DNA from: Roseibacillus sp.
GTDB taxonomy: Bacteria; Verrucomicrobiota; Verrucomicrobiia; Verrucomicrobiales; Akkermansiaceae
Reading direction: 5' to 3'
Length of the DNA stretch: 15,804 nucleotides
NCBI GenBank assembly: GCA_002729275.1
Contig: PBTP01000141.1
Span: 1-15,804, forward strand
Shown here: positions 1,780 through 15,804 of the stretch, one piece after another
How the letters are laid out: every line of letters starts with the position of its first letter
Numbering within the stretch: the first letter of the stretch is position 1
Program-made: the position numbers and the translations under genes
The notes under the pieces: generated by a model
Seen by the model: only the letters and a program-made list of their open reading frames with translations
Told to the model about the DNA's origin: nothing
Database searches by the model: none

Positions 1780-1891
1780 CACTTAGATTGCCACCGCACC
1801 CGTGCGACGAAAGCGAAAGTTTTGAGAAATGACGAGCGTGAGATTCGGTTCTGTCTTGCCAATCCCAAGCCTCCGTGAAGGAATTCGAGTC
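1780..1891. promoter_or_regulatory. Divergent intergenic region, protease / sulfatase 1
   Basis: These 112 bases separate two head-to-head genes and must hold both promoters unless transcription enters from further away. A GAAGGA Shine-Dalgarno sequence lies at 1877-1882, nine bases before the ATG at 1892. It supports that start over the in-frame upstream ATG at 1829. I see no convincing -35/-10 pair or operator. Confidence 0.5.
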
Positions 1892-3373
1892 ATGGCGAAG
1901 ACACTTCCTGCACACATATTTGGACTTTTCCTGATCTCTCAGGGACTTCTCTCTCTCGCGGCCAGTCCAGAGCGCCCGAATGTGGTCTTCTTTCTGGTAG
2001 ACGATTTGGGGTATATGGATATTGGCGCCTATAATCCGAACTCCTTCTACGAGACACCAAATTGTGACCGCATCGCGGCGGCGGGATGCCGCTTCACCAA
2101 CGGTTATGCCGCCAACCCAGTCTGCTCGCCCACGCGGTATTCCATCATGACGGGTCGTCATCCCTCCCGACCCGACGCTACTAACTTTTTCTCGGGGCGA
2201 CGAAGTGGCCGCTTCCTGCCCGCTCCTCTTCATGACCGAATGGATCTCGATGAGGAAACCCTCGCTGAAGCATTCAGGGAGGCTGGATATAAAACATGCT
2301 TCGCTGGGAAATGGCATCTCGGCCCCACCCCTGAATTCTGGCCAACCAAGCAGGGCTTCGATATAAATTTCGGAGGCCACAGCCGCGGCATGCCTCGAAG
2401 TTTTTTCTCCCCCTATCAAAATCCCCGTCTCTCCGATGGACCGAAAGGAGAGCATCTGCCGGCACGTCTTGCGGAGAATTGCGCCCAGTTTATCACCAGC
2501 CACAAGACGGGGCCCTTTTTTCTCTACCTGTCATTCTACTCGGTGCACACCCCGCTACAGGGCAAGCCCGACCTTGTGGCAAAGTATCGGGAAAAATTGG
2601 CCAAAATGCCTCTCGCCGATGGCGAATCTGCCTTTGGCTCGGAAGAGCAGGTCTCGCAGCAGCAAGGCAAGAACGGATCCACGCGTAAGGTCCGTATCCG
2701 CCAGCGGCACCCAGTCTACGCTGCGATGATGGAATCCATGGATAAAGCAGTAGGCCATGTCCTTGACTCCCTTGAGAGTAACGGACTCACAAAAGAAACC
2801 ATTGTCATTTTCATGTCTGATAATGGTGGGCTTTCCACCTCGGAGGGCAGCCCAACTTCCAATGTTCCACTCCGCGGCGGCAAGGGGTGGCTTTACGAAG
2901 GCGGGATCCGGGAGCCCTACATGATCTCCGCTCCGGGCCTCACCCGAGGCGGAACAGTTTGCCATTACCCGGTCACCTCGATGGACTTTTATCCCACCCT
3001 TCTTGACCTCGCCGGCATTCCTGCAAGACCGAAGCAGCACCTCGACGGCAAATCCCTTGTGTCACTGCTCCGGGATCCGGAATCCTCACTTCCCCGCAAG
3101 TCACTCCATTGGCACTATCCGCACTATTCAAATCAGGGGGGATTTCCCGGCGGCGCGATCCGACAGGGCGACTACAAGCTGATTGAAAGGTTCGAAGATG
3201 GAAGGGTCCACCTTTTCAATCTCGCAGCTGATCTGGGAGAAAAGGAAGATATGGCCGAAAAACACCCCGAGAAAGTCCTCACAATGCGCAAGGACCTTCA
3301 TGAATGGTATCGCAAGGTCGACGCCAAATTTCTCCGGCAGAAACCAGGTGGGCCAAGGCCTTGGCAGCCTTGA
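1892..3373 (+). CDS. Secreted S1-family sulfatase (sulfatase 1)
   Basis: This is a type I formylglycine-dependent sulfatase of 493 residues that should hydrolyse sulfate esters outside the cytoplasm. Residues 1-24 are a signal peptide ending LSLAA. The metal-binding pair Asp37-Asp38 lies in LVDDLGY. The motif CSPTR starts at Cys78, the residue expected to be oxidised to formylglycine, and continues as YSIMTGR. GKWHLG and VHTPL supply further active-site Lys and His residues, and Asp310-Asn311 (SDNGG) complete the metal site. The ATG at 1892 is chosen because it follows a GAAGGA ribosome site and directly starts the signal peptide; the frame is open back to ATG 1829. A polar, basic stretch around residues 250-270 looks like a loop insertion. 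The gene runs convergent to the Dabb gene, with 36 bases between stop codons. The substrate cannot be read from sequence alone; a carbohydrate sulfate is likely. Confidence 0.95.
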   Translation: MAKTLPAHIFGLFLISQGLLSLAASPERPNVVFFLVDDLGYMDIGAYNPNSFYETPNCDRIAAAGCRFTNGYAANPVCSPTRYSIMTGRHPSRPDATNFFSGRRSGRFLPAPLHDRMDLDEETLAEAFREAGYKTCFAGKWHLGPTPEFWPTKQGFDINFGGHSRGMPRSFFSPYQNPRLSDGPKGEHLPARLAENCAQFITSHKTGPFFLYLSFYSVHTPLQGKPDLVAKYREKLAKMPLADGESAFGSEEQVSQQQGKNGSTRKVRIRQRHPVYAAMMESMDKAVGHVLDSLESNGLTKETIVIFMSDNGGLSTSEGSPTSNVPLRGGKGWLYEGGIREPYMISAPGLTRGGTVCHYPVTSMDFYPTLLDLAGIPARPKQHLDGKSLVSLLRDPESSLPRKSLHWHYPHYSNQGGFPGGAIRQGDYKLIERFEDGRVHLFNLAADLGEKEDMAEKHPEKVLTMRKDLHEWYRKVDAKFLRQKPGGPRPWQP

Positions 3374-3409
3374 GGGGCCTGCAGAGGTTCTTCCCAGCAA
3401 CACATGGAG

Positions 3410-3712
3410 CTACTCCAGGTCCATTACCAGAACTCGCTCCCACCAATTCTTGAAATCCTCTACGAACGCCATGTGATGAGGATCGTTACCCTGGTAGGCA
3501 TCATGATCCTCCATCGTTGCGAACTTAAACGAGAGAGCGTAATCCCATGAGTGATCGGTCACGGGGCGCTCTTCGGTCGCTGCCGGCTGACCCCAGCACC
3601 CACTCTCAAGAGTCTTTGACTCCATGAGCTTACTCATTCCTGCTTCAAATTTCGAGCGCCCCGATGGATTGTCCCGCTCCTCCTTCAACCAGAAATACAC
3701 ATGATGCTCCAT
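3410..3712 (-). CDS. Dabb (stress-responsive A/B barrel) domain protein
   Basis: This small cytoplasmic protein of 100 residues has no signal peptide. It starts with EHHVYFWLK, the first strand of the dimeric alpha-beta barrel (Dabb) fold. It ends with a region built like the family's second half: DYALSFKF, then DHDAYQGNDPHHMAFVEDF, where a helix carries His residues. The length is typical of single-domain Dabb proteins, which form dimers. Some act on small polyketide or aromatic molecules, but most in bacteria have no known reaction. It is the last of four minus-strand genes, 46 bases after the acetyltransferase stop, and may share its transcript. No ribosome site is clear before the ATG at 3712. 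Confidence 0.8.
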   Translation of the reverse strand: MEHHVYFWLKEERDNPSGRSKFEAGMSKLMESKTLESGCWGQPAATEERPVTDHSWDYALSFKFATMEDHDAYQGNDPHHMAFVEDFKNWWERVLVMDLE

Positions 3713-3726
3713 GGGTGGAGGGTTAG

Positions 3727-3741
3727 CCGGGTTCTCCCCGG
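3727..3741 (-). other. Short GC-rich hairpin between the GNAT and Dabb genes
   Basis: A 5-bp CCGGG/CCCGG stem with a 5-base loop lies between the acetyltransferase stop and the Dabb start. No T-run follows on the minus strand, so I do not call it a terminator. It could affect translation or mRNA stability, or be chance. Confidence 0.2.
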
Positions 3742-3758
3742 GGTAAAAGGGGAAAGAT

Positions 3759-4247
3759 TCACTTGATTCTCTTACGCATTTTCCAGTGTGGAATATTCAC
3801 CTCGAGAAATTTCTCTCCCTCTCGGGCGAAACCGAGCTTTTCATAAAAACCCAACGCCGTCGCCCGGGCATGCAGTTCAATGATGGAGATATTTTCTCCG
3901 GAAAGCACCTGCTCAACCCCACATATCAAGCGCCGACCCCATCCGGCAGACTGACAATCCAGGTCGACAGCCATCTGCCGCAGCTTGACCACCCCGTCGC
4001 CCACCGCGCGAATTACAAGGCAGGCGATAATTCGCCCTTCCACTGCGCACCCGAAGTGGCGCTCCTTTTCCTCCCATGACTTCTCCTCCTCCGTCCATTC
4101 CAGATTAAGTGGGTCACGTAGGATTCGCTTCCTCAGAGCCAGCATGCCAAAATAGGCCTCTGACCCAAATCCTGCCTCTTTTACAACCATGGCTGAGAAG
4201 TGCTGCTTGGCAGATTTCACTGCCCCCCACTGATCAATTTCTCCCAT
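3759..4247 (-). CDS. GNAT-family N-acetyltransferase
   Basis: This is a 162-residue cytoplasmic acetyltransferase predicted to move an acetyl group from acetyl-CoA to an unknown amine. The acetyl-CoA-binding region is RQMAVDLDCQSAGWGRRL at about 90-107, with the family Q-x-x-G-x-G loop at Gln99-Gly104. The later ALGFYEKLGF (131-140) is the usual GNAT motif, with Tyr135 as a possible general acid. The N-terminal region with LALRKRILRDPL resembles the small stand-alone GNATs of the ElaA/YitI kind. From ATG 4247 the gene overlaps the end of the PHP gene by 31 bases, suggesting translational coupling. The conserved domain begins only around residue 20, so ATG 4190 is a real alternative that would remove the overlap. 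Neither start has a good ribosome site. Confidence 0.85.
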   Translation of the reverse strand: MGEIDQWGAVKSAKQHFSAMVVKEAGFGSEAYFGMLALRKRILRDPLNLEWTEEEKSWEEKERHFGCAVEGRIIACLVIRAVGDGVVKLRQMAVDLDCQSAGWGRRLICGVEQVLSGENISIIELHARATALGFYEKLGFAREGEKFLEVNIPHWKMRKRIK

Positions 4248-5467
4248 CCCACTGGCTGGGTCCAGGCCTGCTCCTTCTGCCCAGCATAGGAGGGGTTTGG
4301 ATGATCCCTTGAAGAGGTCACCCTCGCACGAACATATAGTTCGTCTCCTCTCAGACGGTAGACCGGCTGAAGGGATTCTGAAACCGCCAACTCTTCCCCC
4401 ACAGCAGCCTCCTCGCCGCTGCGGGTGCCGATAAATTGGGTTTTGTAGGCTACCCCGGGCTGCCCTTTGATCTCCAATTCGACGATGCCCGCCCGGAACG
4501 ACACATCCCGCAGTGTCACTCCGGAGGAGCCATAGAATTCGCCGCTCTCCAGCGCCCTCATAAGAAGATCCGCCTCAAGGCGCTCCGCCCTGACCATGAT
4601 CCAGCCCCGTCCGGGAGAAACGTTACCCCCATGATACTCGTGTGAGTCATCGGTCGCGATGCCATACAAAGGAGCCGCCTTCAATTTTCTGAGTCGGATA
4701 GCATTCGCCATATCCCAGAGCTGCTCGTCCCCGGGGTGCGTTTCATCACCGAGATGATTAATCCCTGGATGGCCGTTGTAGACCTCGAAAAACTGCTCCT
4801 CGACCACTTCAGCCAACTGCTCTGCCGTGAATGAGAAATGGAAATTCGGATGGTTCAAGTGTGCCACGATAGGCTTGCCAAGACGCTCTGCCTGCTCCCG
4901 GACCATTCGAAGGTTGTTCCGCATCGTATCAACCACGGATGTTCCCTTCTGCGGCGGAATCAATTCCTCAAGGTTCAGCGCGTTGATGTGCACCTGATGC
5001 CTTTCGAAACGATCAGTAATTTCTTCTGCTTCAATGAGCAGAAAGCGCCCCTCTTCCTCAAACTCAGACCGAAGTTCATCGAGTGTTCTCAGGCGAACCT
5101 CCTCAGCGCTTTCCTTTCCCCGGACCTCGACCCAATCCTCACCAAATCGCTTGCGGTATTTGTCCAAGGCGGAAGGCCCATCAGCTTTCTGACGACCCTT
5201 GATCGCGGCACTCTTCATCCACTTTTCTCCCCGGCTGAGAATGTTGTGGTCCGAGAGGGCAAGGAAGTCATATCCCTCCCCCTTATACCAATCCACTACC
5301 ATATCGGGAAAATCATTCCCATCACTCCACAGGGTATGAGTATGAGTATTTCCCTTGAACCATGGCAGGTATACCTCCTTTTCCTTTTCCTTCTGGGCAC
5401 GCGGCAAGAACAGAATGACCCCCAGGCCGAGCACGACCCCCACCAGCAACAGATGATATTTCTTCAT
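4217..5467 (-). CDS. Membrane-anchored PHP-domain metallohydrolase
   Basis: This 416-residue protein has an N-terminal hydrophobic anchor (about residues 5-21), a charged linker, then a PHP (polymerase and histidinol phosphatase) domain. Metal ligands expected in this fold are visible in order: His42, His44 and Asp49 (NTHTHTLWSDG), Asp73-His74 (LSDHN), Glu148-Glu149, His160, His203/His206 (HLNHPN) and Asp274/His276 (DDSHEY). The fold normally binds up to three metal ions and cleaves phosphate esters; the substrate is unknown. The anchor places the active site outside the cytoplasm, unlike polymerase-linked or histidinol-phosphate PHP enzymes. Residues from about 305 look beta-rich and may be a separate domain. 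The gene follows the DUF1080 gene by 49 bases and overlaps the GNAT gene. A role in handling a product of the secreted DUF1080 enzyme is only an inference. Confidence 0.9.
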   Translation of the reverse strand: MKKYHLLLVGVVLGLGVILFLPRAQKEKEKEVYLPWFKGNTHTHTLWSDGNDFPDMVVDWYKGEGYDFLALSDHNILSRGEKWMKSAAIKGRQKADGPSALDKYRKRFGEDWVEVRGKESAEEVRLRTLDELRSEFEEEGRFLLIEAEEITDRFERHQVHINALNLEELIPPQKGTSVVDTMRNNLRMVREQAERLGKPIVAHLNHPNFHFSFTAEQLAEVVEEQFFEVYNGHPGINHLGDETHPGDEQLWDMANAIRLRKLKAAPLYGIATDDSHEYHGGNVSPGRGWIMVRAERLEADLLMRALESGEFYGSSGVTLRDVSFRAGIVELEIKGQPGVAYKTQFIGTRSGEEAAVGEELAVSESLQPVYRLRGDELYVRARVTSSRDHPNPSYAGQKEQAWTQPVGWEKLISGGQ

Positions 5468-5516
5468 AGTCCTGAGCTAGTAAATCGTTTGTGAGCACAA
5501 GAGATTTCAGCCTATC

Positions 5517-6278
5517 TTACTTTTTTCGCCCCTGAATCTTTCGGGACTCCTCCTTTCCGATCTCCCTGATGAAGACATTGCGCCAGCGAATCTCACCTCC
5601 ATGCGTCTGCAACTGAATTGGTCCTTTCTCCGGAAGCGAACCCTTCTTGTCGAAATAGTTCTGTAATCGCGCATGATCGACCACCAGCTTTCCATTCAAA
5701 TGAATGGTCACAAGGTCTCCAGCCATAATGATACGGAAGCTGTTCCACTGGCCAAAGGGCTTATCAGCGAGGTCCAGTGGGTCCTTTCCAGGCCAGCTTT
5801 TGGGATTGTTCCAGAGACCGCCTGAGCCCTTGTCGGCCCCAATATCCCACTTCCCCCCCGCCTCGGTAAAATCCCAGATCTGAACCTGAGGAATTCCCCG
5901 GAGGTAGATTCCGCTATCCGCCTTGGCCACCGTCTTGTATTCGAGCAGTAACTCGAAGTCCCCATAATGTTTTTCTGTACTGAGGTAGAGCCCCCGACCA
6001 TCGTTGACCAGCTCATCATTCTCGACGCTCCAGTGCTTACGGATATCCAGCAGGCTCTTGGCTTTCTTTTCAGCCAGCTTCTCCGGGCTAAGCGCCATCC
6101 ATTTGGCTGGGTCCTCAGTTCCAATTCCCCACCATCCCTTTAGATCCTTTCCGTTGAAGAGAGCAGAGAAGCCCTCAGGCGGCCGGACCCCCGGGTGGTC
6201 ATTCGCGACCGCTGAGATTCCGGCAGCAAAAGTGATCAACAAAAAGGCGGTGAACGCTTGGGTCAATTTGGATTTCAT
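5517..6278 (-). CDS. Secreted DUF1080 / 3-keto-disaccharide hydrolase-family protein
   Basis: This 253-residue protein has a signal peptide (about 1-25, ending SAVA) and one DUF1080 domain. The domain is a concanavalin-like beta sandwich. It opens with the typical FSALFNGKDLKGW (37-49), followed by HWSVENDELV, SGIYLRG and a strand with VQIWD. It then continues through FGQWNSFRI and HLNGKLVVDH to a final strand in GGEIRWRNVFIREI. Family members are abundant in PVC bacteria and Bacteroidota; some cleave 3-keto-glycosides. The protein probably acts in the periplasm or outside on oxidised sugars, but its activity here is unproven. It is the first gene of the minus-strand unit with PHP, GNAT and Dabb genes and starts divergently from sulfatase 2. 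No ribosome site precedes the ATG. Confidence 0.92.
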   Translation of the reverse strand: MKSKLTQAFTAFLLITFAAGISAVANDHPGVRPPEGFSALFNGKDLKGWWGIGTEDPAKWMALSPEKLAEKKAKSLLDIRKHWSVENDELVNDGRGLYLSTEKHYGDFELLLEYKTVAKADSGIYLRGIPQVQIWDFTEAGGKWDIGADKGSGGLWNNPKSWPGKDPLDLADKPFGQWNSFRIIMAGDLVTIHLNGKLVVDHARLQNYFDKKGSLPEKGPIQLQTHGGEIRWRNVFIREIGKEESRKIQGRKK

Positions 6279-6367
6279 AGGGAGAAAGACAGATAACCTG
6301 CATATTCTAACCCCCCGACGGCAAGTGGCTATTGCAAAATTTTCTCTCGCTTACTATTCCTGCACTA
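6279..6367. promoter_or_regulatory. Divergent intergenic region, DUF1080 unit / sulfatase 2
   Basis: Eighty-nine bases lie between the two starts. On the plus strand TTGCAA at 6333-6338 and TATTCC at 6356-6361 are 17 bases apart and weakly resemble a sigma-70 promoter. If used, transcription would begin almost at the ATG at 6368, leaving little or no leader. The match is poor (4/6 and 3/6), so this is only a candidate. Confidence 0.3.
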
Positions 6368-8155
6368 ATGCGTCACTTCCCTTTGCTTCTCTTTCTCTGC
6401 TCAATCCTTTCGGTTCAACCCTCCATGGCCCGACAACCCAACGTTGTCCTCGTCATCACTGACGACCAGGGATATGGCGACCTCGGATGCAATGGACACC
6501 CCTGGGTAAAAACTCCTCATCTGGATAAGCTGCACGCCGAAGCAGTCGCATTGGATGACTACCATGTCGCTCCTACCTGCTCACCTACCCGCTGTGGCCT
6601 GCTCACGGGACACTGGACCAACCGTACAGGGGTGTGGCACACCGTGAACGGCCGGTCCATGTTACGGGAAAATGAAATTACGCTTGGCCAGCTCCTCAAG
6701 GATAACGGTTACCATACCGGGATGTTCGGCAAATGGCATCTTGGGGATAACTTCCCCTACCGTCCAGAGGATCGGGGTTTCACGGAGGTCTATCGCCATG
6801 GAGGAGGAGGAGTGGGGCAAACCCCGGATCTCTGGAATAACAATTATTTTGATGGCCGCTACTGGCATAACGGCAAGATCGTCTCCGCCAGGGGATTCTG
6901 CAGTGACGTCTTCTTCGACTACGGCATTCAATTCATCCGGGACTCCGTCCGCGAGGAAAAGCCCTTCTTCGCCTACATCTCGACAAACGCCCCACACGGG
7001 CCCCTGCATTGTCCTCAGAAATACATGGATCTCTACCCGGGACGCAGCAAGGCAGAGCAAGCTTACTACGGGATGATCTCGAATATTGATGATAACGTCG
7101 GCCGGGCCCGGCGTGCTCTTGAAGAACTGAAAATAACCAACAACACCATCTTCATCTTCACCACCGATAACGGGACGACTCTCGGCAGAAACATATTTAA
7201 TGCCGGAATGAAGGGCTCCAAGGGAAGCGAGTATGATGGGGGGCACCGGGTTCCATTCCTCGTCCACTGGCCCGCTGGCAACCTCAACAAGAAACAATCC
7301 GTCAACACCCTCACATCCTTTGTCGATATTGTTCCGACTCTCCTTGATCTTTGTGGAGCCAGTAAGGTTCCCCCTGCCCTCAAATTTGATGGAACTTCGA
7401 TCAGCAAGCTACTCAAGGAAGGTGATCACAAGGGCTGGCCGGATCGATTTCTGATCACAGATTCGCAGCGGGTCAGGGATCCTATCAAGTGGCGAAAGTC
7501 GTCCGTGATGTCCGAGCAATGGCGACTGGTAAATGGCAATGAGCTCTATCACATCGATAATGACCCCGGCCAAAAAAAGGATCTTTCAGCGGACAACCCC
7601 GAGCAGGTCAAAAAGATGCGCGCCTTTTACAACAGCTGGTGGGCCGAACTGGAGCCAACCTTTTCCCAGACCACTGAAATATACCTGGGACACAAGGATC
7701 ATCCCCGCGTCTCCCTAACTTCCCACGACTGGATTCAGGAGCAGAATCCACCCTGGAACCAGGGTCATATCCGCAAGGGGTCAGGGGCGCAGGGGGGGAA
7801 ACACCGAGGCCACTGGGCAGTCAAGGTTGTCAAGGCAGGGAAATATTCCTTCGAGATGCGCCGCTGGCCCGAAGAAGCGGATATCCCGATCAATGCCGGC
7901 GTTCCCGCCCTCCCAAACGTTCCCGGTTCAAGCAAGGCTTTCAGCACCATCCCGGGAAAAGCCTTCGACTTTGAGAAGGCAACCCTCCGCATTGATGGCA
8001 ATGACCTTGCCTCCGCCCCCGTTGTAGATTCAGAGAGCCACGTCAAACTTACCGCAACCCTCACCGCTGGATCACACCGCCTGGCTCCTTTCTTCACTGC
8101 CTCCACCGGTGACGAACTGGGGGCATATTACCTCATCGTCGAGCCTGCGCCCTGA
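6368..8155 (+). CDS. Secreted S1-family sulfatase with C-terminal extension (sulfatase 2)
   Basis: This 595-residue arylsulfatase-type enzyme begins with a signal peptide ending near QPSMA (residue 21). Metal-site Asp32-Asp33 lie in ITDDQGYGD. The formylglycine motif is CSPTR at Cys71, followed by an unusual second Cys (CGLLTG). GKWHLGD, APHGPL and Asp267-Asn268 (TDNGTT) complete the active site. The catalytic domain ends around residue 450. The remaining 130-145 residues, from about GKHRGHWAVKV to the end, are beta-rich, contain AGKYSFEMRRWP and AGSHRLAPFF, and look like a beta-sandwich domain that may bind the substrate. ATG 6368 is chosen because it starts directly into the signal peptide. 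An upstream TTG at 6332 is in frame but would add twelve residues before it. The substrate is unknown. Confidence 0.95.
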   Translation: MRHFPLLLFLCSILSVQPSMARQPNVVLVITDDQGYGDLGCNGHPWVKTPHLDKLHAEAVALDDYHVAPTCSPTRCGLLTGHWTNRTGVWHTVNGRSMLRENEITLGQLLKDNGYHTGMFGKWHLGDNFPYRPEDRGFTEVYRHGGGGVGQTPDLWNNNYFDGRYWHNGKIVSARGFCSDVFFDYGIQFIRDSVREEKPFFAYISTNAPHGPLHCPQKYMDLYPGRSKAEQAYYGMISNIDDNVGRARRALEELKITNNTIFIFTTDNGTTLGRNIFNAGMKGSKGSEYDGGHRVPFLVHWPAGNLNKKQSVNTLTSFVDIVPTLLDLCGASKVPPALKFDGTSISKLLKEGDHKGWPDRFLITDSQRVRDPIKWRKSSVMSEQWRLVNGNELYHIDNDPGQKKDLSADNPEQVKKMRAFYNSWWAELEPTFSQTTEIYLGHKDHPRVSLTSHDWIQEQNPPWNQGHIRKGSGAQGGKHRGHWAVKVVKAGKYSFEMRRWPEEADIPINAGVPALPNVPGSSKAFSTIPGKAFDFEKATLRIDGNDLASAPVVDSESHVKLTATLTAGSHRLAPFFTASTGDELGAYYLIVEPAP

Positions 8156-8324
8156 GGTGGAATATCTACGTCGGGAAGAGGTGTTTGAGCTCATTCCCTC
8201 ACTTTGGCGAAATGACTCGGCATCTTCCTACGTATCCTGATATATCTAACTCTTTCTCCTTTCTACCAACCCGGAAAAGCGCGCTGCCCCTGCTACGCTC
8301 ATCCAAACAGGAACACTCCTCATT
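8156..8324 (+). other. Intergenic region before the unknown exported protein
   Basis: This 169-base gap lies between two plus-strand genes. It contains no gene and no clear terminator hairpin. AGGA at 8309-8312 is twelve bases before the ATG at 8325, too far for a strong ribosome site. An AT-richer patch near 8240-8270 could hold a promoter, but I cannot define one. Confidence 0.35.
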
Positions 8325-9734
8325 ATGACCACCCGTATTGTTCTCCCCGCCCCTGCTCTCGCCGTAGCAGTTACTGCTTTTCTCGGCCTTACAACAATCG
8401 GCCGATCCGCAGAAGAGGCTCCCAAGGTGAATCAGAAGCAGCTTCTTGAAGCTCTGAATCAGAAAAAAACTCAGGCTCTCGCTGAGGCTGAGGAGGCTCA
8501 GTTACTCATCTCGGGCTACGAAGAATTCCTCGAGGACCCAGAGCTCAATGCGGAGGAGCGGCCTGAAATCCGCAAAAGCCTCATCAAGGAGAGGTCGCGC
8601 TACAAACAGCATCGCTCGAGGGCTGGAAGAATTCAGGTGGCCCAGCAGGAACTTCGCCGACTTCCCCACGATCCCGCGGTCAACCTCCACACATTGAAAG
8701 AGGCCTATGCGGGGCTTGATTCCCTTGCCGCACGGGGAAAGGAAGCCTGGAATGAGGTGCTTGCAACCCGGGAAAAGTTTGTGGGAAATCTTGAGCGGGA
8801 ACACGAGCAGCACCTCAGAGACGCACAGGACGCGCTTCGCACGTTGAATGTAAAAGAGCAGGCAACCGAACTTCTGCTACACTCCGTCGACCCAAACTCG
8901 GGCAATACCTCTGACTCTGAATTTTTTGTGACCCTCAAACTCCCAGCTGTCAGGACGGCTGTGGAGCGGGGATTTCGGATTGCTGCCAACCCGAACGATA
9001 AGCAGCGGCAGGCTCAAACCACACTTTTAGCCCTGATCGCCTACTCCCAATATTTTTGGGATCACTACAGTGGGAAGCGTTCCCTTCTGGGTGAGGATGA
9101 ACTCCCCTCGGACCGCCATCGCAATATTTTTGGAGTGCCCGACGGCAAGGTCCTCACCAGCGACATGATCACACACAACAATAGCCACTTTTACTATCTC
9201 GCCCCAAAAGCACGCGAACGCTTCAACAAGACTCTGGAAAGGATCTGGGGCGAGGAGGCCCTGTCAGTTACGACGTGGAACCAGAAATATGATGAGCAGT
9301 TCGCGCACGCCTGCCGCGCTCTTGCCACGGTCAGCAACGACTACCTTGTTCCAAACCCAGAGGTTTTTACCATCATGGAGAAGGTTGAACTTCTTCTTAA
9401 TGAACTCGACCTCGTTCATAAGGCCATCAACCAGCTGGACTCCAACTATCGAGCCCAGATGGCCACAGCCAAGCAGTTTGGAGATGAAGCACGACTCTCC
9501 TCCGCGCATTACAATGCAGAGATCTGGAGCAAGGAAGCAGAACGCCTACTTGGAGGATTTGAACAGGGGCACGCCCTCCTGGCACAGCAATTGAGAGATT
9601 CCGGCGAGGAGGGGTGGATTCCAGACGCTCGCAGGATCTCTGAAAGCGCTCTTATTATCGGCAAAGCACAGAAACGCTTCTATTCTGTCCGCAAGGTCAA
9701 GAATGACCTCAAGGAGCTGCTTTCTGACCGTTAG
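8325..9734 (+). CDS. Exported helical protein of unknown function
   Basis: I do not recognise this 469-residue protein. It has a signal peptide (about residues 1-29, ending GRSA before EEAPK), so it should be periplasmic or secreted. Residues 35-180 are rich in Glu, Lys, Arg, Gln and Ala with heptad-like patterns, suggesting long helices or coiled coil. The second half (about 180-469) is also mostly helical and holds more aromatic residues, including SQYFWDHYSG and HNNSHFYYLAP, where several His and Tyr residues cluster. There is no lipobox, no later membrane segment and no Cys pattern. It stands alone, 169 bases after sulfatase 2 and 229 bases before the beta-propeller gene. It could be a structural or scaffold protein; no enzymatic motif is visible. 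Confidence 0.85.
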   Translation: MTTRIVLPAPALAVAVTAFLGLTTIGRSAEEAPKVNQKQLLEALNQKKTQALAEAEEAQLLISGYEEFLEDPELNAEERPEIRKSLIKERSRYKQHRSRAGRIQVAQQELRRLPHDPAVNLHTLKEAYAGLDSLAARGKEAWNEVLATREKFVGNLEREHEQHLRDAQDALRTLNVKEQATELLLHSVDPNSGNTSDSEFFVTLKLPAVRTAVERGFRIAANPNDKQRQAQTTLLALIAYSQYFWDHYSGKRSLLGEDELPSDRHRNIFGVPDGKVLTSDMITHNNSHFYYLAPKARERFNKTLERIWGEEALSVTTWNQKYDEQFAHACRALATVSNDYLVPNPEVFTIMEKVELLLNELDLVHKAINQLDSNYRAQMATAKQFGDEARLSSAHYNAEIWSKEAERLLGGFEQGHALLAQQLRDSGEEGWIPDARRISESALIIGKAQKRFYSVRKVKNDLKELLSDR

Positions 9735-9963
9735 TGTCTCCGATATGGCGGGAACTCTCGTCTCTGAGCGGCAATCCGGCTCACACCCTTCTGCTTGACG
9801 AGCGGAACGGCCTCCCGACTCCCAGCTCCGGGAACGAGGCCCCAGAGCGATGTGGTGGAGCAAAACCTGTGACAAAATATTGACCCCCTCACCAAAGCAG
9901 GCACTTTCCACCATGCCCTTTCGATACTCCCGAGTTACTTGGGCCTCAACTCATCCGCCTATC
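9735..9963 (+). other. Intergenic region before the beta-propeller gene
   Basis: This 229-base gap is the longest in the window. It holds a possible hairpin at 9809-9841 (listed separately). The beta-propeller frame is open upstream to ATG 9850, but that stretch encodes no signal peptide or conserved sequence, so I treat it as non-coding. No clear promoter is seen. Confidence 0.4.
9809..9841 (+). terminator. Possible hairpin after the unknown exported protein gene
   Basis: GGCCTC at 9809-9814 is complementary to GAGGCC at 9836-9841. Inner CCG and CGG can extend the stem with a small bulge. No T-run follows, so it is at best a weak or factor-dependent terminator, or an RNA structure that forms by chance. 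Confidence 0.25.
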
Positions 9964-11205
9964 ATGAACCCTCTTATATCCACTGTTCTTGCCACGACCT
10001 TGATGGCTTCTTCTGTCTATTCCGCAAGACCGGATTGGCTCCAGTGGAGAGGCCCAACACGGGATAGTAAGATTCACAAATCTGCCAAGGCTTGGCCCAG
10101 TAAACTGACTGAGGGCAACCTTAAGAAGAAATGGGCGGTCGATCTCGCGGAGGGCTACTCCTCCCCGGTTGTCGCAGGCAATCGGGTCATCACGGTAGAG
10201 ACGAAGTCCAAGAAGAACGAAATCGTTCGTGCCTTCGACCGTGACTCTGGAAAACAGCTCTGGGAAACATCCTGGGCAGGGTCCATGAAAGTTCCCTTTT
10301 TTGCTGCCAAGAACGGTAGCTGGGTCCGCAGTTCACCAGCGTCTGATGGCAAGCATATTTATGTTGGTGGGATGGTGGATGTCCTTGTCGCCCTTGATCT
10401 TACTTCCGGAAAAGAGAAGTGGCGCGCCGATTTTCCAAAGACTGAGAAGACCACAAAGCCGCAGTTCGGCTTTGCGTGTTCTCCCTTGCTCGACAAGGAC
10501 AGTATCTACGTTCAGATCGGGAGTGCTCTCCGCAAGATCCGCAAGGATAATGGAGAGACCATGTGGAAATCTCTCGCTGATGAGAGAGCAATGTTTGGCT
10601 CTGCATTTTCATCACCGGTTCGTGCCCGGATCGGAAAGCGCGACCAGATTGTGGTGCAAACCCGTATGGAACTCGCGGGAATCGCCCCGCATGATGGAAA
10701 AGTCATCTGGAAGACTCCGGTCAAAGCCTTCCGGGGAATGAACATCCTCACTCCTACCGTTATCGACGACAAGGTGTTCACCTCTACCTATGGTGGTGGC
10801 ACCTTCTGGTATGGAGTCGAAACCAAGGGGAACAAGCAGGACATCTCCTCCCTGTGGCAGCATAAGGTTGAAGGGTACATGTCCTCGCCAGTCGTCGTTG
10901 ATGGCCTGATTTACATGCATGGACGCGACAAGCGTTTTCACTGCATCGATCCGGTGAAAAAGGAAGTCCTCTGGTCCACCGGGGAGGTATTTGGTGATTA
11001 CTGGTCGATGGTAGCAAACGGAAATCAGATCCTCGCATTGGACAGCCGGGGATACCTTCTTCTCATCAACGCCAGCCCGGAAGGCTTCAAGCCCGCCGGC
11101 AAGATCGAGGTAAGCGGCCGAGCAACCTGGGCTCATCTCGTTGTGTGTGGGAATGAAGTTTATATCCGGGACCTCAAAGGCCTCACCGCCTACAGCTGGA
11201 AGTAA
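9964..11205 (+). CDS. Secreted PQQ-like beta-propeller protein
   Basis: This 413-residue protein has a signal peptide (about 1-20, ending SVYSA) followed by WLQWRGPTRD, the usual N-terminal motif of PVC PQQ-like proteins. About seven blades follow, each ending in a D-x-x-S/D-G-K-x-x-W type motif: RDSGKQLWE, LTSGKEKWR, KDNGETMWK, HDGKVIWK, and later degenerate copies such as PVKKEVLWS. It resembles BamB and the beta-propeller of quinoprotein dehydrogenases but lacks a visible lipobox, heme motif or obvious PQQ-enzyme catalytic signature. It is therefore probably a binding or scaffold protein in the periplasm. ATG 9964 is chosen because it opens directly on the signal peptide; the earlier in-frame ATG at 9850 would place 38 unlikely residues before it. 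It converges with the ExbD-like operon, only 19 bases separating the stops, with no evident terminator between. Confidence 0.9.
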   Translation: MNPLISTVLATTLMASSVYSARPDWLQWRGPTRDSKIHKSAKAWPSKLTEGNLKKKWAVDLAEGYSSPVVAGNRVITVETKSKKNEIVRAFDRDSGKQLWETSWAGSMKVPFFAAKNGSWVRSSPASDGKHIYVGGMVDVLVALDLTSGKEKWRADFPKTEKTTKPQFGFACSPLLDKDSIYVQIGSALRKIRKDNGETMWKSLADERAMFGSAFSSPVRARIGKRDQIVVQTRMELAGIAPHDGKVIWKTPVKAFRGMNILTPTVIDDKVFTSTYGGGTFWYGVETKGNKQDISSLWQHKVEGYMSSPVVVDGLIYMHGRDKRFHCIDPVKKEVLWSTGEVFGDYWSMVANGNQILALDSRGYLLLINASPEGFKPAGKIEVSGRATWAHLVVCGNEVYIRDLKGLTAYSWK

Positions 11206-11224
11206 TCAGTAGAACCAGGCCCGT

Positions 11225-12316
11225 TCAGTCGAGAATATCCTCCGTCGGCTTTTTCTTCGGCAGGGGCTTCTTCCCAGGCTTCTGGGCCGGCGGCTTCCAG
11301 TCAGGATGAGGGGTAGCCCGGATCTTCCGTTCTCCGAGGTTCAGGGTCTGGCGTACAGCATCATCCGCGAAGATCCAGCCGACCGGAATCCGCTTGTCCT
11401 CAGCGATTCTCCGAACACTGATATAGTGCTCGAATGAATCTCTGGTCACAAAAAACCGGAGATAGTCTCGGTCGAATGATGCCGCAACCATCACCTTGTT
11501 GCCAGCGGATCTCGGTTTTGCAAGATCCTCAAGATCTTCCCCCTTCCCATCCCTTGGGTAACAGAAAACCTGTAGATGCCCGTTCTCGTGCAGCTTGAAT
11601 TCATACCGGAAAAGGGGGTGGCTTTCCGTTAATTTATCCAGAAGTGGTATAATTTTGTTTCTCTCATAGCGACTCTTGTATTTGGGGTCGCGGGATAGCA
11701 GATCCTTCCTGGGTATTACCTTGGCTGCGATGGCGTCGAGGATTCCCTCGCGGTCGAAATGAATCAATTTTCCACCGCGAATGATCATACGGATCTCTTT
11801 CGCTTCCTCTTCAGGAATACGGGGGTTAGGAAGGCGAACCAGTTTAGGCTTCCTGCTTCTGAGACTTTCCTCTTCCTCCTCTGCCTTACTTCTCAACTGT
11901 GCCAGTTTGCCACCCTCGGATACCAGCTTCTGTTTTAGCTCCTCAACCTCCTGCTCAATGATTGCCAACTCAAGATCCAGCTTCTTGAAACGAGCTTCGC
12001 TGTTTCTGAACTCTTTCCGATCCGCGATCAAGGCCCGCAAATTCCCTCGTGCCTTCTCCACATCCTCAGGGGTCACCATCTCGGGCTCTTTCAGCTGATC
12101 GAGGCGCTCCATTACGATTTTCTCCTTCGCCTCCAGCTCAGACATCATCGCAACGGTCACTTCCGGGAGGTTGGCTCGAATCCGCTTGGCCGCACTCGAG
12201 ACGTTCACCTGAGTGACAATCAAAACAACGATAAGAACCCCTACCACATTCGTCATAGTATCGAGAAGAGAGTCCAGGCTCCCCATCGTATCATCTCTTT
12301 TTCTACGTCGTGCCAT
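11225..12316 (-). CDS. ExbD/TolR-like coiled-coil protein, Asp-bearing subunit
   Basis: This 363-residue protein is the third gene of the motor-like operon. A short basic cytoplasmic N-terminus (MARRRKRDD) leads into one membrane segment at about 15-37, containing LLDTMTNVVGVLIVVLIV. Asp19 lies at the position of the proton-carrying Asp of ExbD and TolR. A highly charged coiled coil follows at about 58-155. The C-terminal region, about 160-340, should be periplasmic. It includes IRMIIRGGKLIHFD and, later, YLRFFVTRDSFEHYISVRRIAED, resembling the ExbD-like periplasmic domain of PVC proteins. The tail is rich in Lys and Pro (KPGKKPLPKKKP) and may bind an anionic partner such as cell wall or envelope polymer; that is inference. 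It starts 7 bases after the preceding gene, so translation is probably coupled. Its 3' end faces the beta-propeller gene. Confidence 0.85.
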   Translation of the reverse strand: MARRRKRDDTMGSLDSLLDTMTNVVGVLIVVLIVTQVNVSSAAKRIRANLPEVTVAMMSELEAKEKIVMERLDQLKEPEMVTPEDVEKARGNLRALIADRKEFRNSEARFKKLDLELAIIEQEVEELKQKLVSEGGKLAQLRSKAEEEEESLRSRKPKLVRLPNPRIPEEEAKEIRMIIRGGKLIHFDREGILDAIAAKVIPRKDLLSRDPKYKSRYERNKIIPLLDKLTESHPLFRYEFKLHENGHLQVFCYPRDGKGEDLEDLAKPRSAGNKVMVAASFDRDYLRFFVTRDSFEHYISVRRIAEDKRIPVGWIFADDAVRQTLNLGERKIRATPHPDWKPPAQKPGKKPLPKKKPTEDILD

Positions 12317-12323
12317 GGCCTTG

Positions 12324-13124
12324 TCAGCGCCGTTTACTGAAGAATTCTTTGAGGTCCAGATCTCCTCCGCCGACCAGAGGAACCTTACTTGTCACCGCAC
12401 CAACTCCCCGCGCGAAATCACGAGCCGCATAGAAACTGGACCGCGCATCATCCCTTACAAGAAATACGATGATACGGTTTTCCCTGGATGCCACATACTC
12501 CACCGCCTGCCGGAACTTTGCATTCTTTGATATCTCCTTACGAGCTACCTCTACTCGCTGGGAAGGACTGTGAATGATCACTCCCTCCTTACGCGCTTCC
12601 ACAAAAACAGGAGTAACCTTCCGGAAATAGTTGGAGTTCGAAAGAATCCTCAGGGGAAGACCCCTCCCAGCCTGCTTGGCAAGCTCTCCCAGTTTTTCCT
12701 TCCCTTTAACCAACCCCTCCTCAACCTTTTTAGTAGCGTCCCGGATTTTTTCCTGTTCCGCCTTCGCCTCGTCAACTTGACGGACAAGCGGAGGAACCTT
12801 TGACCCTTCCTTCCGCAGAGTCTCGATCTCTGCCGAGACCTTCTCAATCTGCTCCTTGAGCTCGGCCAGACCCACGGCATCAGCATTCGTCCGCTGAAGC
12901 TCCTGCTCCTTCAGCTCGATCTCAGCCTCCCGCTCTACAATTTCTTCCTGCAGTGCAACATAGTCTTCAGCCCGGGCGACCGCTTCGTCTTTCCGACCCT
13001 GAAGAACCTCTGACACACTTAGAGCGACAATCAGAATCGTGAGAGAGCCAATCAGGCACGCAAGGATGCTGAGGAATGGAAATAACGAGATCTCGGGTCC
13101 CGCAGATGTTCGCCCCCTGGCCAT
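12324..13124 (-). CDS. ExbD/TolR-like coiled-coil protein, Ser-variant subunit
   Basis: This 266-residue protein is the middle gene of the operon. Its N-terminus, GPEISLFPFLSILACLIGSL, aligns by eye with the ExbD start that ends in TPFIDVMLVLL. The ExbD proton-carrying Asp is replaced by Ser19 here. One membrane segment runs from about 17 to 36. A coiled coil of about 100 residues follows (about 45-150), rich in Glu, Lys and Ala. The C-terminal domain, about 150-255, contains VTPVFVEARKEGVIIH and VFLVRDDARSSFYAARDFARG, which match the ExbD-like periplasmic domain found in planctomycete and verrucomicrobial proteins. It follows the channel gene by 47 bases and precedes the second ExbD-like gene by 7. 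It probably pairs with that protein to form a heteromeric rod, which is inference from gene order and matching architecture. Confidence 0.85.
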   Translation of the reverse strand: MARGRTSAGPEISLFPFLSILACLIGSLTILIVALSVSEVLQGRKDEAVARAEDYVALQEEIVEREAEIELKEQELQRTNADAVGLAELKEQIEKVSAEIETLRKEGSKVPPLVRQVDEAKAEQEKIRDATKKVEEGLVKGKEKLGELAKQAGRGLPLRILSNSNYFRKVTPVFVEARKEGVIIHSPSQRVEVARKEISKNAKFRQAVEYVASRENRIIVFLVRDDARSSFYAARDFARGVGAVTSKVPLVGGGDLDLKEFFSKRR

Positions 13125-13171
13125 TGTCTGATATTAATTTTGCGATTTCTCCGGCTTTTCGACCACTACAC

Positions 13172-14506
13172 TCAGAACCACTTCCTTTTTTTCTCAATCT
13201 TGACCTGCTTTCCGTCCAGTTCCCGAAGCACCTTGTTAAGCTCTTTCATTCCCTCCGCAAGCACTTGGAATGAGGCCCTCACCCTCTCCGATGTCGTCTC
13301 GAGAGTGTGCTTGGACTGAACCTCCAGGCTTTCCGCCATTGCCCCAACCTTCTCCTCAATCACGGATCGTTGCGAAACGATCGCAGCCGTGGTCTGCTCG
13401 ACCAGTTGGAGCTGTTTCGCCTGTCCCTCGGCCATCCCCTCTCCAACCTCCCTTAACTGCTGTAGAAGGTCTTGCTGGCTCTCCGCAAGAACCGGGGCAA
13501 GGGCATTCGCAAGAGATCGGGTATTATCGGCAATATCTGAAACACCACCGGCATCACTGAGCCTCTTAAGAAGATTTTCAAGGCAGTAACTGTCCACCGA
13601 GGCCAGGAGGTCCTCCTCCGCCTTCTGCATTCCACTGGCGGGAAAACTTAAGAGAATGCTCATGCAGAGAGCAACCAGAGTTGTATCAAAAGCAACTCCA
13701 AGCCCGACCGTTACCTCTGTCAACTGATCCATGAGCGAAGCCATCTCCTGAGTCCCCGACATACCTCCTGCCAATCCTGCAATAGCGGTCGAAATGCCAA
13801 GCACTGTCCCGATAAAACCCATGATCGGAATGGCCCAGAGAAACACTTTCACAAGGGTGTAGCTGCCACTGATCTTTCCCGCATCAATTTCGGACTGCAT
13901 CTCCATCATGCTCGCTACCTCAGGGTTACTCTCACGGGCCTTAAAGTGCTCAAGACCCCTCCGAATCCGTCGAAGCATATAACTGTCCCCTAGCTTGGCT
14001 GGCAAAGTGGCCTGATAGCTAAGGAAGTTGTCGACATTCTGCGGAGTAATCGCATCCGCGATGGAAACAGGGAGAACGTCCATGATCAGCGCACGCCGCT
14101 CCACCTTCAGCCGCCGGTATTTCAAGATCATGATTCCGGCTGCCCATCCGAGGAAGAGAACCAGGACGAAAGGCACCCATCCGCGATCAAGAAAGAGAGC
14201 GCCAAAGTAAGCATCCTTGAAAGGAAGCATCATGAGCAGAAAGCCTGTGCCGATTGCAGCCCCGATGGCAAAGCCTGTCCACAGTTCACGGTTCCCGGCA
14301 CTTCCCCAGTTCTGTCCCCCCGGGCTACCCTCTGCAGCAGGGACCTGCTGTTGGGAAACCGCACCCGGAGCGGCCAGGGATCCGAGAGCGGGAACGGTAC
14401 AGTTTGTTCCACAGAAGGGGCACTTCACCTGGGTCTCTGAGGCGAATTGCTGGGCCAGAAGAGCCTGATTACAAGAGGGACAGGAGAATCTCACACCCCA
14501 GTTCAT
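13172..14506 (-). CDS. Zinc-ribbon MotA/TolQ/ExbB-like channel protein with coiled-coil tail
   Basis: This 444-residue protein is the first gene of the operon. Cys9-x-x-Cys12 and Cys29-x-x-Cys32 form an N-terminal zinc ribbon, then a Pro/Gly/Gln-rich linker runs to residue 74. Four membrane segments are predicted: about 76-95, 109-128, 218-242 and 265-288. The last two carry the family core, with GFIGTVLGI (230-238) and VTVGLGVAFDTTLVAL (265-280), including Thr275-Thr276 near where ExbB and MotA channels have conserved Thr. Four segments place both ends in the cytoplasm, as in MotA. Residues 290-444 form a helical coiled-coil tail. It should form a pentameric ring driven by proton or sodium flow. 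ATG 14506 is chosen because it starts just before the zinc ribbon; the frame stays open to 14689 but has no conserved sequence there. No clear ribosome site is seen. Confidence 0.88.
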   Translation of the reverse strand: MNWGVRFSCPSCNQALLAQQFASETQVKCPFCGTNCTVPALGSLAAPGAVSQQQVPAAEGSPGGQNWGSAGNRELWTGFAIGAAIGTGFLLMMLPFKDAYFGALFLDRGWVPFVLVLFLGWAAGIMILKYRRLKVERRALIMDVLPVSIADAITPQNVDNFLSYQATLPAKLGDSYMLRRIRRGLEHFKARESNPEVASMMEMQSEIDAGKISGSYTLVKVFLWAIPIMGFIGTVLGISTAIAGLAGGMSGTQEMASLMDQLTEVTVGLGVAFDTTLVALCMSILLSFPASGMQKAEEDLLASVDSYCLENLLKRLSDAGGVSDIADNTRSLANALAPVLAESQQDLLQQLREVGEGMAEGQAKQLQLVEQTTAAIVSQRSVIEEKVGAMAESLEVQSKHTLETTSERVRASFQVLAEGMKELNKVLRELDGKQVKIEKKRKWF

Positions 14507-14674
14507 CCTATGTGAAGCATAAGTGCAACTCAGTGCATCGTATCCAGCTCCATCTAAATCCGCTCTTGAAAGGACCGCTACACCTGACTCGATCATTTCT
14601 CGCTTCCTATCTCCAGATTGTTCGCTTTCCATTCCCTGCCCTAAAGACCCGACCATGGGGCACTTTGCAGCATC
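14507..14674. promoter_or_regulatory. Divergent intergenic region, motor-like operon / sulfatase 3
   Basis: These 168 bases lie between the two head-to-head starts and probably carry both promoters. AGTGCA occurs twice close together at about 14522-14536 as a short direct repeat, possibly a protein-binding site or chance. I see no convincing -35/-10 pair, and neither start has a clear Shine-Dalgarno sequence. Confidence 0.4.
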
Positions 14675-15804
14675 ATGAATACCATACACCTCCTCCTTCT
14701 AACGCTTATTATCAGTTTTGCGCCAGTCGCTGCCTCTGCAGAAGAAAACAAAGGCTCAAGTCAGGCACCCAATATCATCATCATCATGACTGATGATCAG
14801 GGTTATGCTGATGTAGGAAAGTTCGGCGCGAAGGGGTTCTCGACACCTCATCTGGACCGGATGGCGGACGAGGGGCTGCGCTTTACCAACTGGTATGTCC
14901 CTCAGGCAGTGTGTGGCGCCTCACGAGCCGGACTGCTTACCGGCTGCTACCCGAATCGTATTAACATGCTCGGAGCGCCAGGTCCGAGCTCGCGAGGGGG
15001 CATCGCCGACGGCGAGGTTCTTATCTCTGAGATGCTCAAGGACCGTGGTTACTCCACTGCTCTTTTTGGAAAGTGGCACTTGGGCCACCTCAGGAAGTTT
15101 CTTCCTCTCCAGCATGGTTTCGATGAATATTATGGATTGCCCTTCTCCAATGACATGTGGCCCTACCATCCCGGTGTCCGTCATCTCTCAATGGAAAAGC
15201 GACTCAAGCGCTGGCCTCACCTCCCTATGATTGAGGGCAACGAGATTATTAACAAAGAGGTCTCGCCCGAGGATCAGGTTGGCCTCACGACCTCTTATAC
15301 TGAGAAGGCAGTAGACTTCATTGCCCGTAACAGGACTAAACCCTTCTTTCTCTACGTGGCCCACTCCATGCCTCACGTTCCTCTCTTTGTCTCAGAAAAA
15401 TTCAAGGGTAAATCTGAACAGGGACTTTACGGAGATGTCATCATGGAGATTGACTGGTCTGTCGGCCAGATCCTTTCAGCGCTGAAAAGATTCGATCTGG
15501 CAGACAATACCCTGGTCTTGTTCACCAGCGACAACGGGCCTTGGTTAAGCTACGGAAACCACGCCGGAAGCGCTCATCCACTCCGCGAAGGAAAAGGAAC
15601 CACATGGGAGGGAGGGCAGCGGGTCCCCTGTATCGTACGTTGGCCTCGGAGAATTCCTGCAGGCCAAGCGTGCCATACTCCGGCCATGCACATTGATCTT
15701 TTCCCCACGATCCAGAATATTGTGGGAGGCAAAGAGCCTCCTCACCAGATTGACGGGCGGGATATCACTGCCCTTCTCACTAATCCCGGAGAGGCAAAAA
15801 GCCC
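14675..15804 (+). CDS. Secreted S1-family sulfatase (sulfatase 3), 3' end cut off
   Basis: Only the first 376 residues are in the window. Residues 1-22 are a signal peptide (ending AASA). Asp40-Asp41 lie in MTDDQGYAD. The formylglycine motif is the C-x-A-x-R form, CGASR at Cys80 followed by AGLLTG, rather than the commoner C-x-P-x-R of the other two sulfatases here. GKWHLGH, MPHVPL and Asp286-Asn287 (TSDNGP) are present, so the metal site is complete. [16 protein letters not shown] is the usual conserved region after it. The protein should be active if a maturing enzyme exists elsewhere in the genome. It starts divergently from the motor-like operon, and the C-terminal subdomain is missing only because of the window edge. 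ATG 14675 opens directly on the signal peptide. The substrate is unknown. Confidence 0.94.

Follow-up and report, generated by a model that had tools for sequence, protein, structure and literature searches.

A motor-like operon of Roseibacillus sp. with a membrane-helix aspartate in only one of its two rods

When one channel gene is followed by two unlike ExbD-type rod genes, do the rods form a single axle, and how might such an axle turn if only one of them carries the ion-binding aspartate? The question is raised by three neighbouring genes in a 15,804-nucleotide stretch of DNA (hereafter, the window) from Roseibacillus sp., a member of the Verrucomicrobiota (assembly GCA_002729275.1, contig PBTP01000141.1, positions 1 to 15,804 of the forward strand). 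All three lie on the minus strand, separated by intergenic gaps of 47 and 7 bases: a channel gene (13172..14506; 444 amino acids (aa)), the gene for what we call rod 1 (12324..13124; 266 aa) and that for rod 2 (11225..12316; 363 aa). An initial annotation, made from the sequence alone, had described a three-gene operon in which a channel is followed by two unlike single-pass rods, and the open frames confirm this layout; it had overlooked an asymmetry between the rods, in that rod 1 has serine where rod 2 has aspartate. From comparisons of homologous sequences, we consider it probable that the three proteins form an envelope-spanning, ion-driven rotary motor of the 5:2 type, the axle of which would be an obligate heterodimer of rod 1 and rod 2 (that is, a 5:1:1 complex).

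An aspartate in one rod and a serine in the other

Rod 1 consists of an acid-free membrane helix, a long helix and a TolR/ExbD-like domain. Its membrane helix (residues 14–36; 13017..13085, minus strand; motif SLFPFLSILACLIG) belongs to a segment with 13 invariant residues from S13 to I32 across 93 aligned rows, none of which has an acid (D, E) or a His at residues 14–36. Ser19 (13068..13070, minus strand) stands at the site of the ion-binding Asp of ExbD and MotB, and was found in all 119 helix-bearing proteins among the best 120 rod 1 homologues. Rod 2 combines an Asp-bearing membrane helix with a helical stalk and an enlarged C-terminal domain. In its helix (residues 14–36; 12209..12277, minus strand; motif LDSLLDTMTNVVG), D15, D19 and N23 are present in 86 of 86 rows. 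Asp19 (12260..12262, minus strand), the predicted ion-carrying carboxylate, recurs in 117 of the 117 motif-bearing proteins among the best 120 rod 2 homologues. One helical turn before it lies Asp15 (12272..12274, minus strand), which was read in 210 of 212 readable proteins out of 216 distinct rod 2 proteins, a tally that is informative for Asp15 only because the search pattern itself requires Asp19; the two rows with Val are one gene read twice, and Val occurs only where rod 1 has Asp. Six rod 2 proteins were not read by the pattern; two of these are overlong readings that carry the motif, the remaining four being fragments or shortened at the N-terminal end. The same genome encodes five ExbD genes above the Pfam cut-off, including a tandem pair, all with Asp; a further, sub-threshold PF02472 match on contig C104 is a 295-aa lipoprotein-like frame and was rejected as an ExbD.

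The profiles of the two rods are homologous and place Ser19 opposite Asp19 without a gap, and on this comparison we take the rods to be diverged paralogues. Both membrane helices are far more conserved than the stalk or the end domain (means of 3.7 and 3.9 bits for the helices of rod 1 and rod 2, versus 1.9 and 1.6 bits for the stalks). When AlphaFold2 models, predicted as single chains only, were compared using VIA-align, the C-terminal domain of rod 1 (12336..12632, minus strand) came closest to the periplasmic fold of TolR and ExbD and can be classed with it. No solved fold resembling rod 2 stood out in the structure comparison; its C-terminal domain (about residues 160–330; 11327..11839, minus strand) is possibly an enlarged domain of the TolR/ExbD type. 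In Pfam, neither rod matched PF02472 or an OmpA-type family at E values up to 1, and no other family exceeded its cut-off for either rod. A DUF4159 match of rod 2 (21.6 bits) fell under the cut-off of 25.9 and was not used. The rods' matches to PADLOC, NCBIfam and PDB sequences lie mostly in the helical stalks, and those that do were put down to chance resemblance between coils. Separately, a precomputed Pfam match to PF28006 exists for a few rod 1 homologues (P0141, P0157 and P0174) and was not seen in the Pfam scan of rod 1 from the window.

The channel subunit scores 35.4 bits against PF01618 (gathering cut-off 22.9), which bears out its earlier identification as a MotA/TolQ/ExbB-like protein; by eye, it has four membrane helices and a C-terminal tail. 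An N-terminal zinc ribbon (C9, C12, C29 and C32; 14411..14482, minus strand) follows a CxxC-CxxC pattern that recurs in 34 of 44 aligned channel homologues, some of the other ten being shorter at the N terminus. As a side observation, the ribbon of the channel profile weakly matches the gliding-protein zinc ribbon of the myxobacterial entry 7zok (E 0.022), among other zinc ribbons. In the fourth membrane helix, Asp274-Thr275 (13682..13687, minus strand) is followed by Thr276, and D274, T275 and T276 are found in 44 of 44 channels. The Thr pair, like the Asp of rod 2, is kept as in ordinary relatives, and the acidic position 274 has no acid in the ordinary channels of the same genome. The fourth helix is the only channel helix conserved on one face, as judged by its helical moment of conservation (p 0.005).

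Joint inheritance of the three genes

The best case for joint action of the two rod helices and the channel is made by a residue switch in relatives of one genome of the Verrucomicrobiota, G187, in which rod 1 has Asp and rod 2 is the sole gene lacking Asp15 among the 212 readable. Because these two departures coincide in G187, we read the operon in its relatives: 49 genomes in all, comprising 44 of the 48 genomes of its genus and four of a second genus (from a pattern search of 68 genomes of the family), together with G066. Left out of the 48 were G467 (no match), G484 (weak match), and G470 and G489 (partial rod 1); beyond the genus of G187, the reading covered g4 (G066) and g116 (four genomes) only. 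Two states were defined, state A having rod 1 Ser19, rod 2 Asp15 and channel Thr275, as in the window, and state B having Asp19, Val15 and Ala275 at the same positions, as in G187. Rod 1 Asp19 was found in 30 genomes, of which all 30 have rod 2 Val15 and all 28 with a readable channel have Ala275; rod 1 Ser19 was found in 19 genomes, with rod 2 Asp15 in 18 of 18 readable cases and channel Thr275 in 19 of 19. Not one of the 49 genomes mixes the two states. Apart from these 30 genomes of a single bacterial family, Asp at site 19 of rod 1 is restricted to distant relatives.

On a joint tree computed without the columns around the three motifs, the states change four times, and all four changes are forced by well-supported branches. 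The number of switches depends on the tree, being 4 (fast method) or 3 for rod 1 alone, 2 for the channel alone and 9 for rod 2 alone (fast method); tests for a single origin reject it with the rod 1 tree (p 4e-5) but not with the channel tree (p 0.07). In two genera, the helix blocks of state B hardly differ from one another, which makes recombination just as likely an explanation as repeated substitution. In both cases, the residues of the three proteins are inherited as matched sets, and it is for this reason that we rank the switch first among the lines of evidence: it ties both rods and the channel to one core.

Co-occurrence points in the same direction. In a sample of 440 genomes (194 Verrucomicrobiota and 246 Planctomycetota; best 8 to 13 candidates scored per genome), strong matches (E<1e-30) to rod 1 and to rod 2 fell in the same 6 Verrucomicrobiota and the same 11 Planctomycetota (that is, the same 17 of 440), and at this threshold neither rod was found without the other. 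The initial annotation had named rods that often occur apart, or without the channel, as evidence against a single complex; what we find is the joint distribution just given and a channel gene adjoining rod 1 in 17 of 17 genomes. Of the 11 Planctomycetota, 6 encode rod 2 at another place in the genome; in G126, a draft genome among the 6 Verrucomicrobiota, each rod is encoded close to a contig end, on different contigs. At E values up to 0.001, weaker matches extend to more genomes (rod 2 in 41 Verrucomicrobiota and 44 Planctomycetota, rod 1 in 48 and 46, respectively) and do not coincide; these, not all of which were sorted, are in part many short coil matches and in part distant relatives.

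Rod 2 retrieved 168 relatives, the best 80 of which form a set of named loci; in 70 of these, the order channel, rod 1, rod 2 occurs, counting L024, for which the printed order differs owing to an overlong rod 2 reading. Four loci have the two rods only: L039 and L079 start right at the edge of a contig, and the channels of L040 (in two pieces) and L054 are on other contigs. In the six loci with rod 2 alone, rod 1 is encoded elsewhere in the genome with the channel beside it. A Gimesia-like group shows that the operon is not universal: its genomes encode rod 2 apart from rod 1 and the channel, which stay together at another place. The three-gene synteny that the initial annotation had proposed to score holds for most loci and breaks down in this group. 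Because the unlinked cases still have both rods, the co-occurrence of the rods is not a matter of linkage alone.

The lengths of the two rods also change together. The linker between the membrane site and the end domain has a mean of 159 residues in rod 1 and 156 in rod 2, and the linker lengths covary after correction for the tree (r of contrasts 0.53, sign-flip p 0.0012, 68 linked pairs), with 19 of 24 joint changes in the same direction, besides 6 changes confined to rod 1 and 3 confined to rod 2. Without this correction, the Spearman coefficient is 0.54 for 78 pairs, or 0.45 when the 29 distinct combinations are counted once each; loci without detectable motifs were dropped (14 skips), and the removal of duplicate readings reduced the 78 pairs to 68. 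Together with the co-occurrence and the coupled residue switch, this covariation supports the fixed heteromeric rod that the gene order had suggested at the outset.

More distant relatives vary at the same sites. In a longer relative from the Planctomycetota, rod 1 reaches about 815 residues and has Ala or Thr at the Asp site, and rod 2 has DxxxDxxxN. A distant three-gene group (L109–L112, L166 and L171) combines an Asp-bearing rod 1 with a rod 2 that reads ExxxDxxxN, with Glu at −4, and the four aligned channels of L109–L112 have FETT in place of FDTT. On the channel tree, whose outgroup branch is very long, the presence or absence of the rod 1 Asp needs three changes; if ordinary motors are taken into account, parsimony points to a likely loss of the rod 1 Asp from an ancestor with Asp in both rods. 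Some further observations were made by the way. Loci L143 (4241-9143), L144 (4950-9918) and L146 (3245-8525) of the Planctomycetota hold a second three-gene set, in which the channel shows no zinc ribbon by eye, rod 1 (about 730–815 aa) carries Ala at the Asp site, and rod 2 has Asp. L099–L102 encode short rod-2-like proteins (about 210–230 aa) without a long stalk, in which the helix Asp comes soon before the end domain; in L099, a short channel lies beside such a protein.

A proposed axle without two-fold symmetry, and its alternatives

In the 5:2 model as outlined in the corresponding part of PMC9389320, the Asp residues of the two rods alternate, so that there are ten equivalent states, and replacement of Asp by Asn imitates protonation. 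The operon may depart from this scheme. Five channel subunits would surround one rod 1 helix and one rod 2 helix; rod 2 would supply the carboxylates that bind ions, namely Asp19 and, one turn ahead of it, Asp15, and Ser19 would make rod 1 a permanently neutral, 'always protonated' partner. As Ser19 would fix rod 1 in the neutral state, periplasmic ions would bind to rod 2 only, the axle would show one active face and five equivalent states per turn, and a full rotation would take about five steps of 72 degrees, as against ten equivalent ones of 36 degrees. Each turn would consume five ions if Asp19 alone works, and up to ten if Asp15 also carries; Asp15, which is nearer the N-terminal (presumably cytoplasmic) side, may partly replace the missing rod 1 site. 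The stalks and end domains suggest a reach across the periplasm, over which the paired stalks would carry torque to ExbD/TolR-like end domains that may hold the cell wall or an outer-membrane partner. We therefore put forward, tentatively and at somewhat less than even odds in our own estimate, a natural ion-driven rotary motor with an axle that is no longer two-fold symmetric, in which one rod has the ion-binding acids, the other is fixed in a neutral form and a turn takes five steps, and which one family may have toggled, as a matched three-protein set, between a design with the acids on one rod and a design with one acid per rod.

Several observations weigh against the asymmetric heterodimer. 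Shared descent accounts for part of both the co-occurrence and the residue switch. The repeated switching may be the work of recombination, given the close likeness of the state B helix blocks, and the independent pairs number 2 to 3, too few for a sign test; moreover, these counts compare a state with itself and show the number of pairs only. Conservation extends over all faces of the rod helices, which is no proof of burial: neither rod helix gave a helical moment of conservation, and the test does not discriminate burial here because channel helices 1–3 give no moment either. A heptad pattern over the whole length of rod 1 was not significant. Asp15 could be a second ion site, in which case the motor would keep its ten ions per turn, and the acid at −4 and the rod 1 Asp are not strictly exclusive, given that the distant group of L109–L112, L166 and L171 has both.

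Among the alternatives, the one that best survives has rod 2 forming a homodimeric axle, with rod 1 beside the pentamer as a force transducer similar to TonB or TolA. The membrane helices of TonB and TolA lack the Asp, as does rod 1, and the FP-rich start of the rod 1 helix loosely resembles that of the TonB helix. However, the two rods are homologous, the end domain of rod 1 most resembles that of TolR/ExbD, and related genomes have Asp at site 19 itself. Furthermore, TonB/TolA-type helices are described as having a conserved His, in an SHLS membrane motif (PMC12204202, in its section 8), which none of the 93 rod 1 rows has in the helix, and we regard a transducer role as rather unlikely.

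The channel might instead build two alternative motors, one with a rod 1 homodimer (inactive or regulatory) and one with a rod 2 homodimer. The choice between heterodimer and homodimer is likewise left open for AglRQ/S in the relevant part of PMC9389320. A rod 1 pair, however, would have no membrane carboxylate, and rods that never share a motor sit poorly with lengths that covary and with residues that switch together in rod 1 and rod 2; we give this arrangement a small chance.

The same parts could also form a gated channel or sensor that does not rotate and that signals through the zinc ribbon and the C-terminal tail. Both features are present, in a channel weakly similar to ZorA, yet the Thr pair and the rod 2 Asp are retained as in ordinary relatives and the fourth channel helix alone is conserved on one face, which makes a non-rotary function improbable. 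An anti-phage system similar to Zorya, to which weak matches of the channel to ZorA2 models might point (PADLOC E 5.8e-6; NCBIfam 20.2 bits), is one that we scarcely credit, as the NCBIfam cut-off for ZorA is 100 bits, Pfam finds no OmpA-like wall-binding domain in either rod, and no defence partner was judged to be among the 25 neighbour families common to at least 6 loci (no PADLOC scan of the neighbours was made).

Known systems, neighbouring genes and significance

Compared with these alternatives, we favour the heterodimeric axle, and a close parallel in gene content is the gliding motor of Myxococcus xanthus. The AglRQS cluster of this organism, as described in the pertinent section of PMC3169522, comprises one channel gene and two unlike genes of the ExbD/TolR type, as does the window operon, and the products AglQ (162 aa) and AglS (194 aa) both match PF02472; both are described as having a conserved Asp in the part of PMC9389320 devoted to them. 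The window rods differ in being longer, in falling outside PF02472 and in having the Asp in one rod only. The initial annotation had held that the rods of known motors are mostly homodimers, a statement that needs qualification in that motors with two ExbD-type subunits, such as AglRQS, were already known. The 5:2 motors ExbBD and TolQR share with the window set a PF01618 channel, single-pass rods, the TolR/ExbD-like end domain (rod 1) and the Asp (rod 2); the window set differs in its two different rods, the absence of the Asp from rod 1, mean linkers of about 156–159 residues, the acid at channel position 274 and the N-terminal zinc ribbon.

Clusters with one channel and two unlike rods, accompanied by TPR and vWA partners, are also known from the Planctomycetota–Verrucomicrobiota–Chlamydiota (PVC) lineage, to which the window set likewise belongs (PMC12204202, in the section on these clusters). 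That section is silent on a missing Asp, and the first gene downstream of the window operon encodes a propeller protein similar to PQQ/BamB. By eye, no TPR or vWA gene was recognised beside the operon of the window. Elsewhere in the same genome, contig C9 has a set that resembles the published PVC cluster, in which an ordinary channel and two ExbD genes with Asp precede a possible TPR gene (L010, 2108-3420; similarly L004, 997-2925). Zorya ZorAB resembles the window set in its PF01618-type channel with a long C-terminal tail and its single-pass rod with Asp; it differs in that ZorB is one protein with a wall-binding domain (according to the part of PMC11890865 that describes it), a kind of domain for which neither window rod has an OmpA-type match, and the ZorA score of the window channel is far under the family cut-off. 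Membership was thus rejected for PF02472 (no match), for Zorya (under cut-off) and, for rod 1, for TonB/TolA (no His in any of the 93 rows). The arrangement of two ExbD-type genes after a single channel is already known, from AglRQS and from the PVC clusters with TPR and vWA genes, and what would be new is the Asp-free rod partner; in the open-licence literature, to which the search was confined (subscription papers lying outside it), we found no description of an Asp-free partner of the ExbD type.

The surroundings of the operon name no partner. A comparison of neighbours across the 80 loci gave the 25 open-frame families mentioned above, and because we judged these to be antisense frames, synteny among close relatives (above all, Roseibacillus-like ones) or gene families (sulfatases and others) at varied places and strands, no partner gene can be named. 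In the window itself, the propeller gene (9850-11205; by Pfam) is convergent with rod 2, with 19 bases between their ends, and its relatives are found downstream in several Roseibacillus-like loci. A 469-aa protein (8325-9734) has no Pfam match above cut-off and no NCBIfam match, and its relatives lie downstream of the operon in 10 Roseibacillus-like loci. Inspection by eye also picked out three sulfatase-like genes in the surroundings of the operon, at 1829-3373, at 6332-8155 and starting near 14700.

In summary, the two rod helices are so unlike that heterodimerization, and the need for two carboxylates, become directly testable in a natural system, in which close relatives have already made the swap between both designs. 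Such a comparison would reveal which features of the rotary cycle are essential, and the operon points to an envelope machine in Planctomycetota and Verrucomicrobiota.

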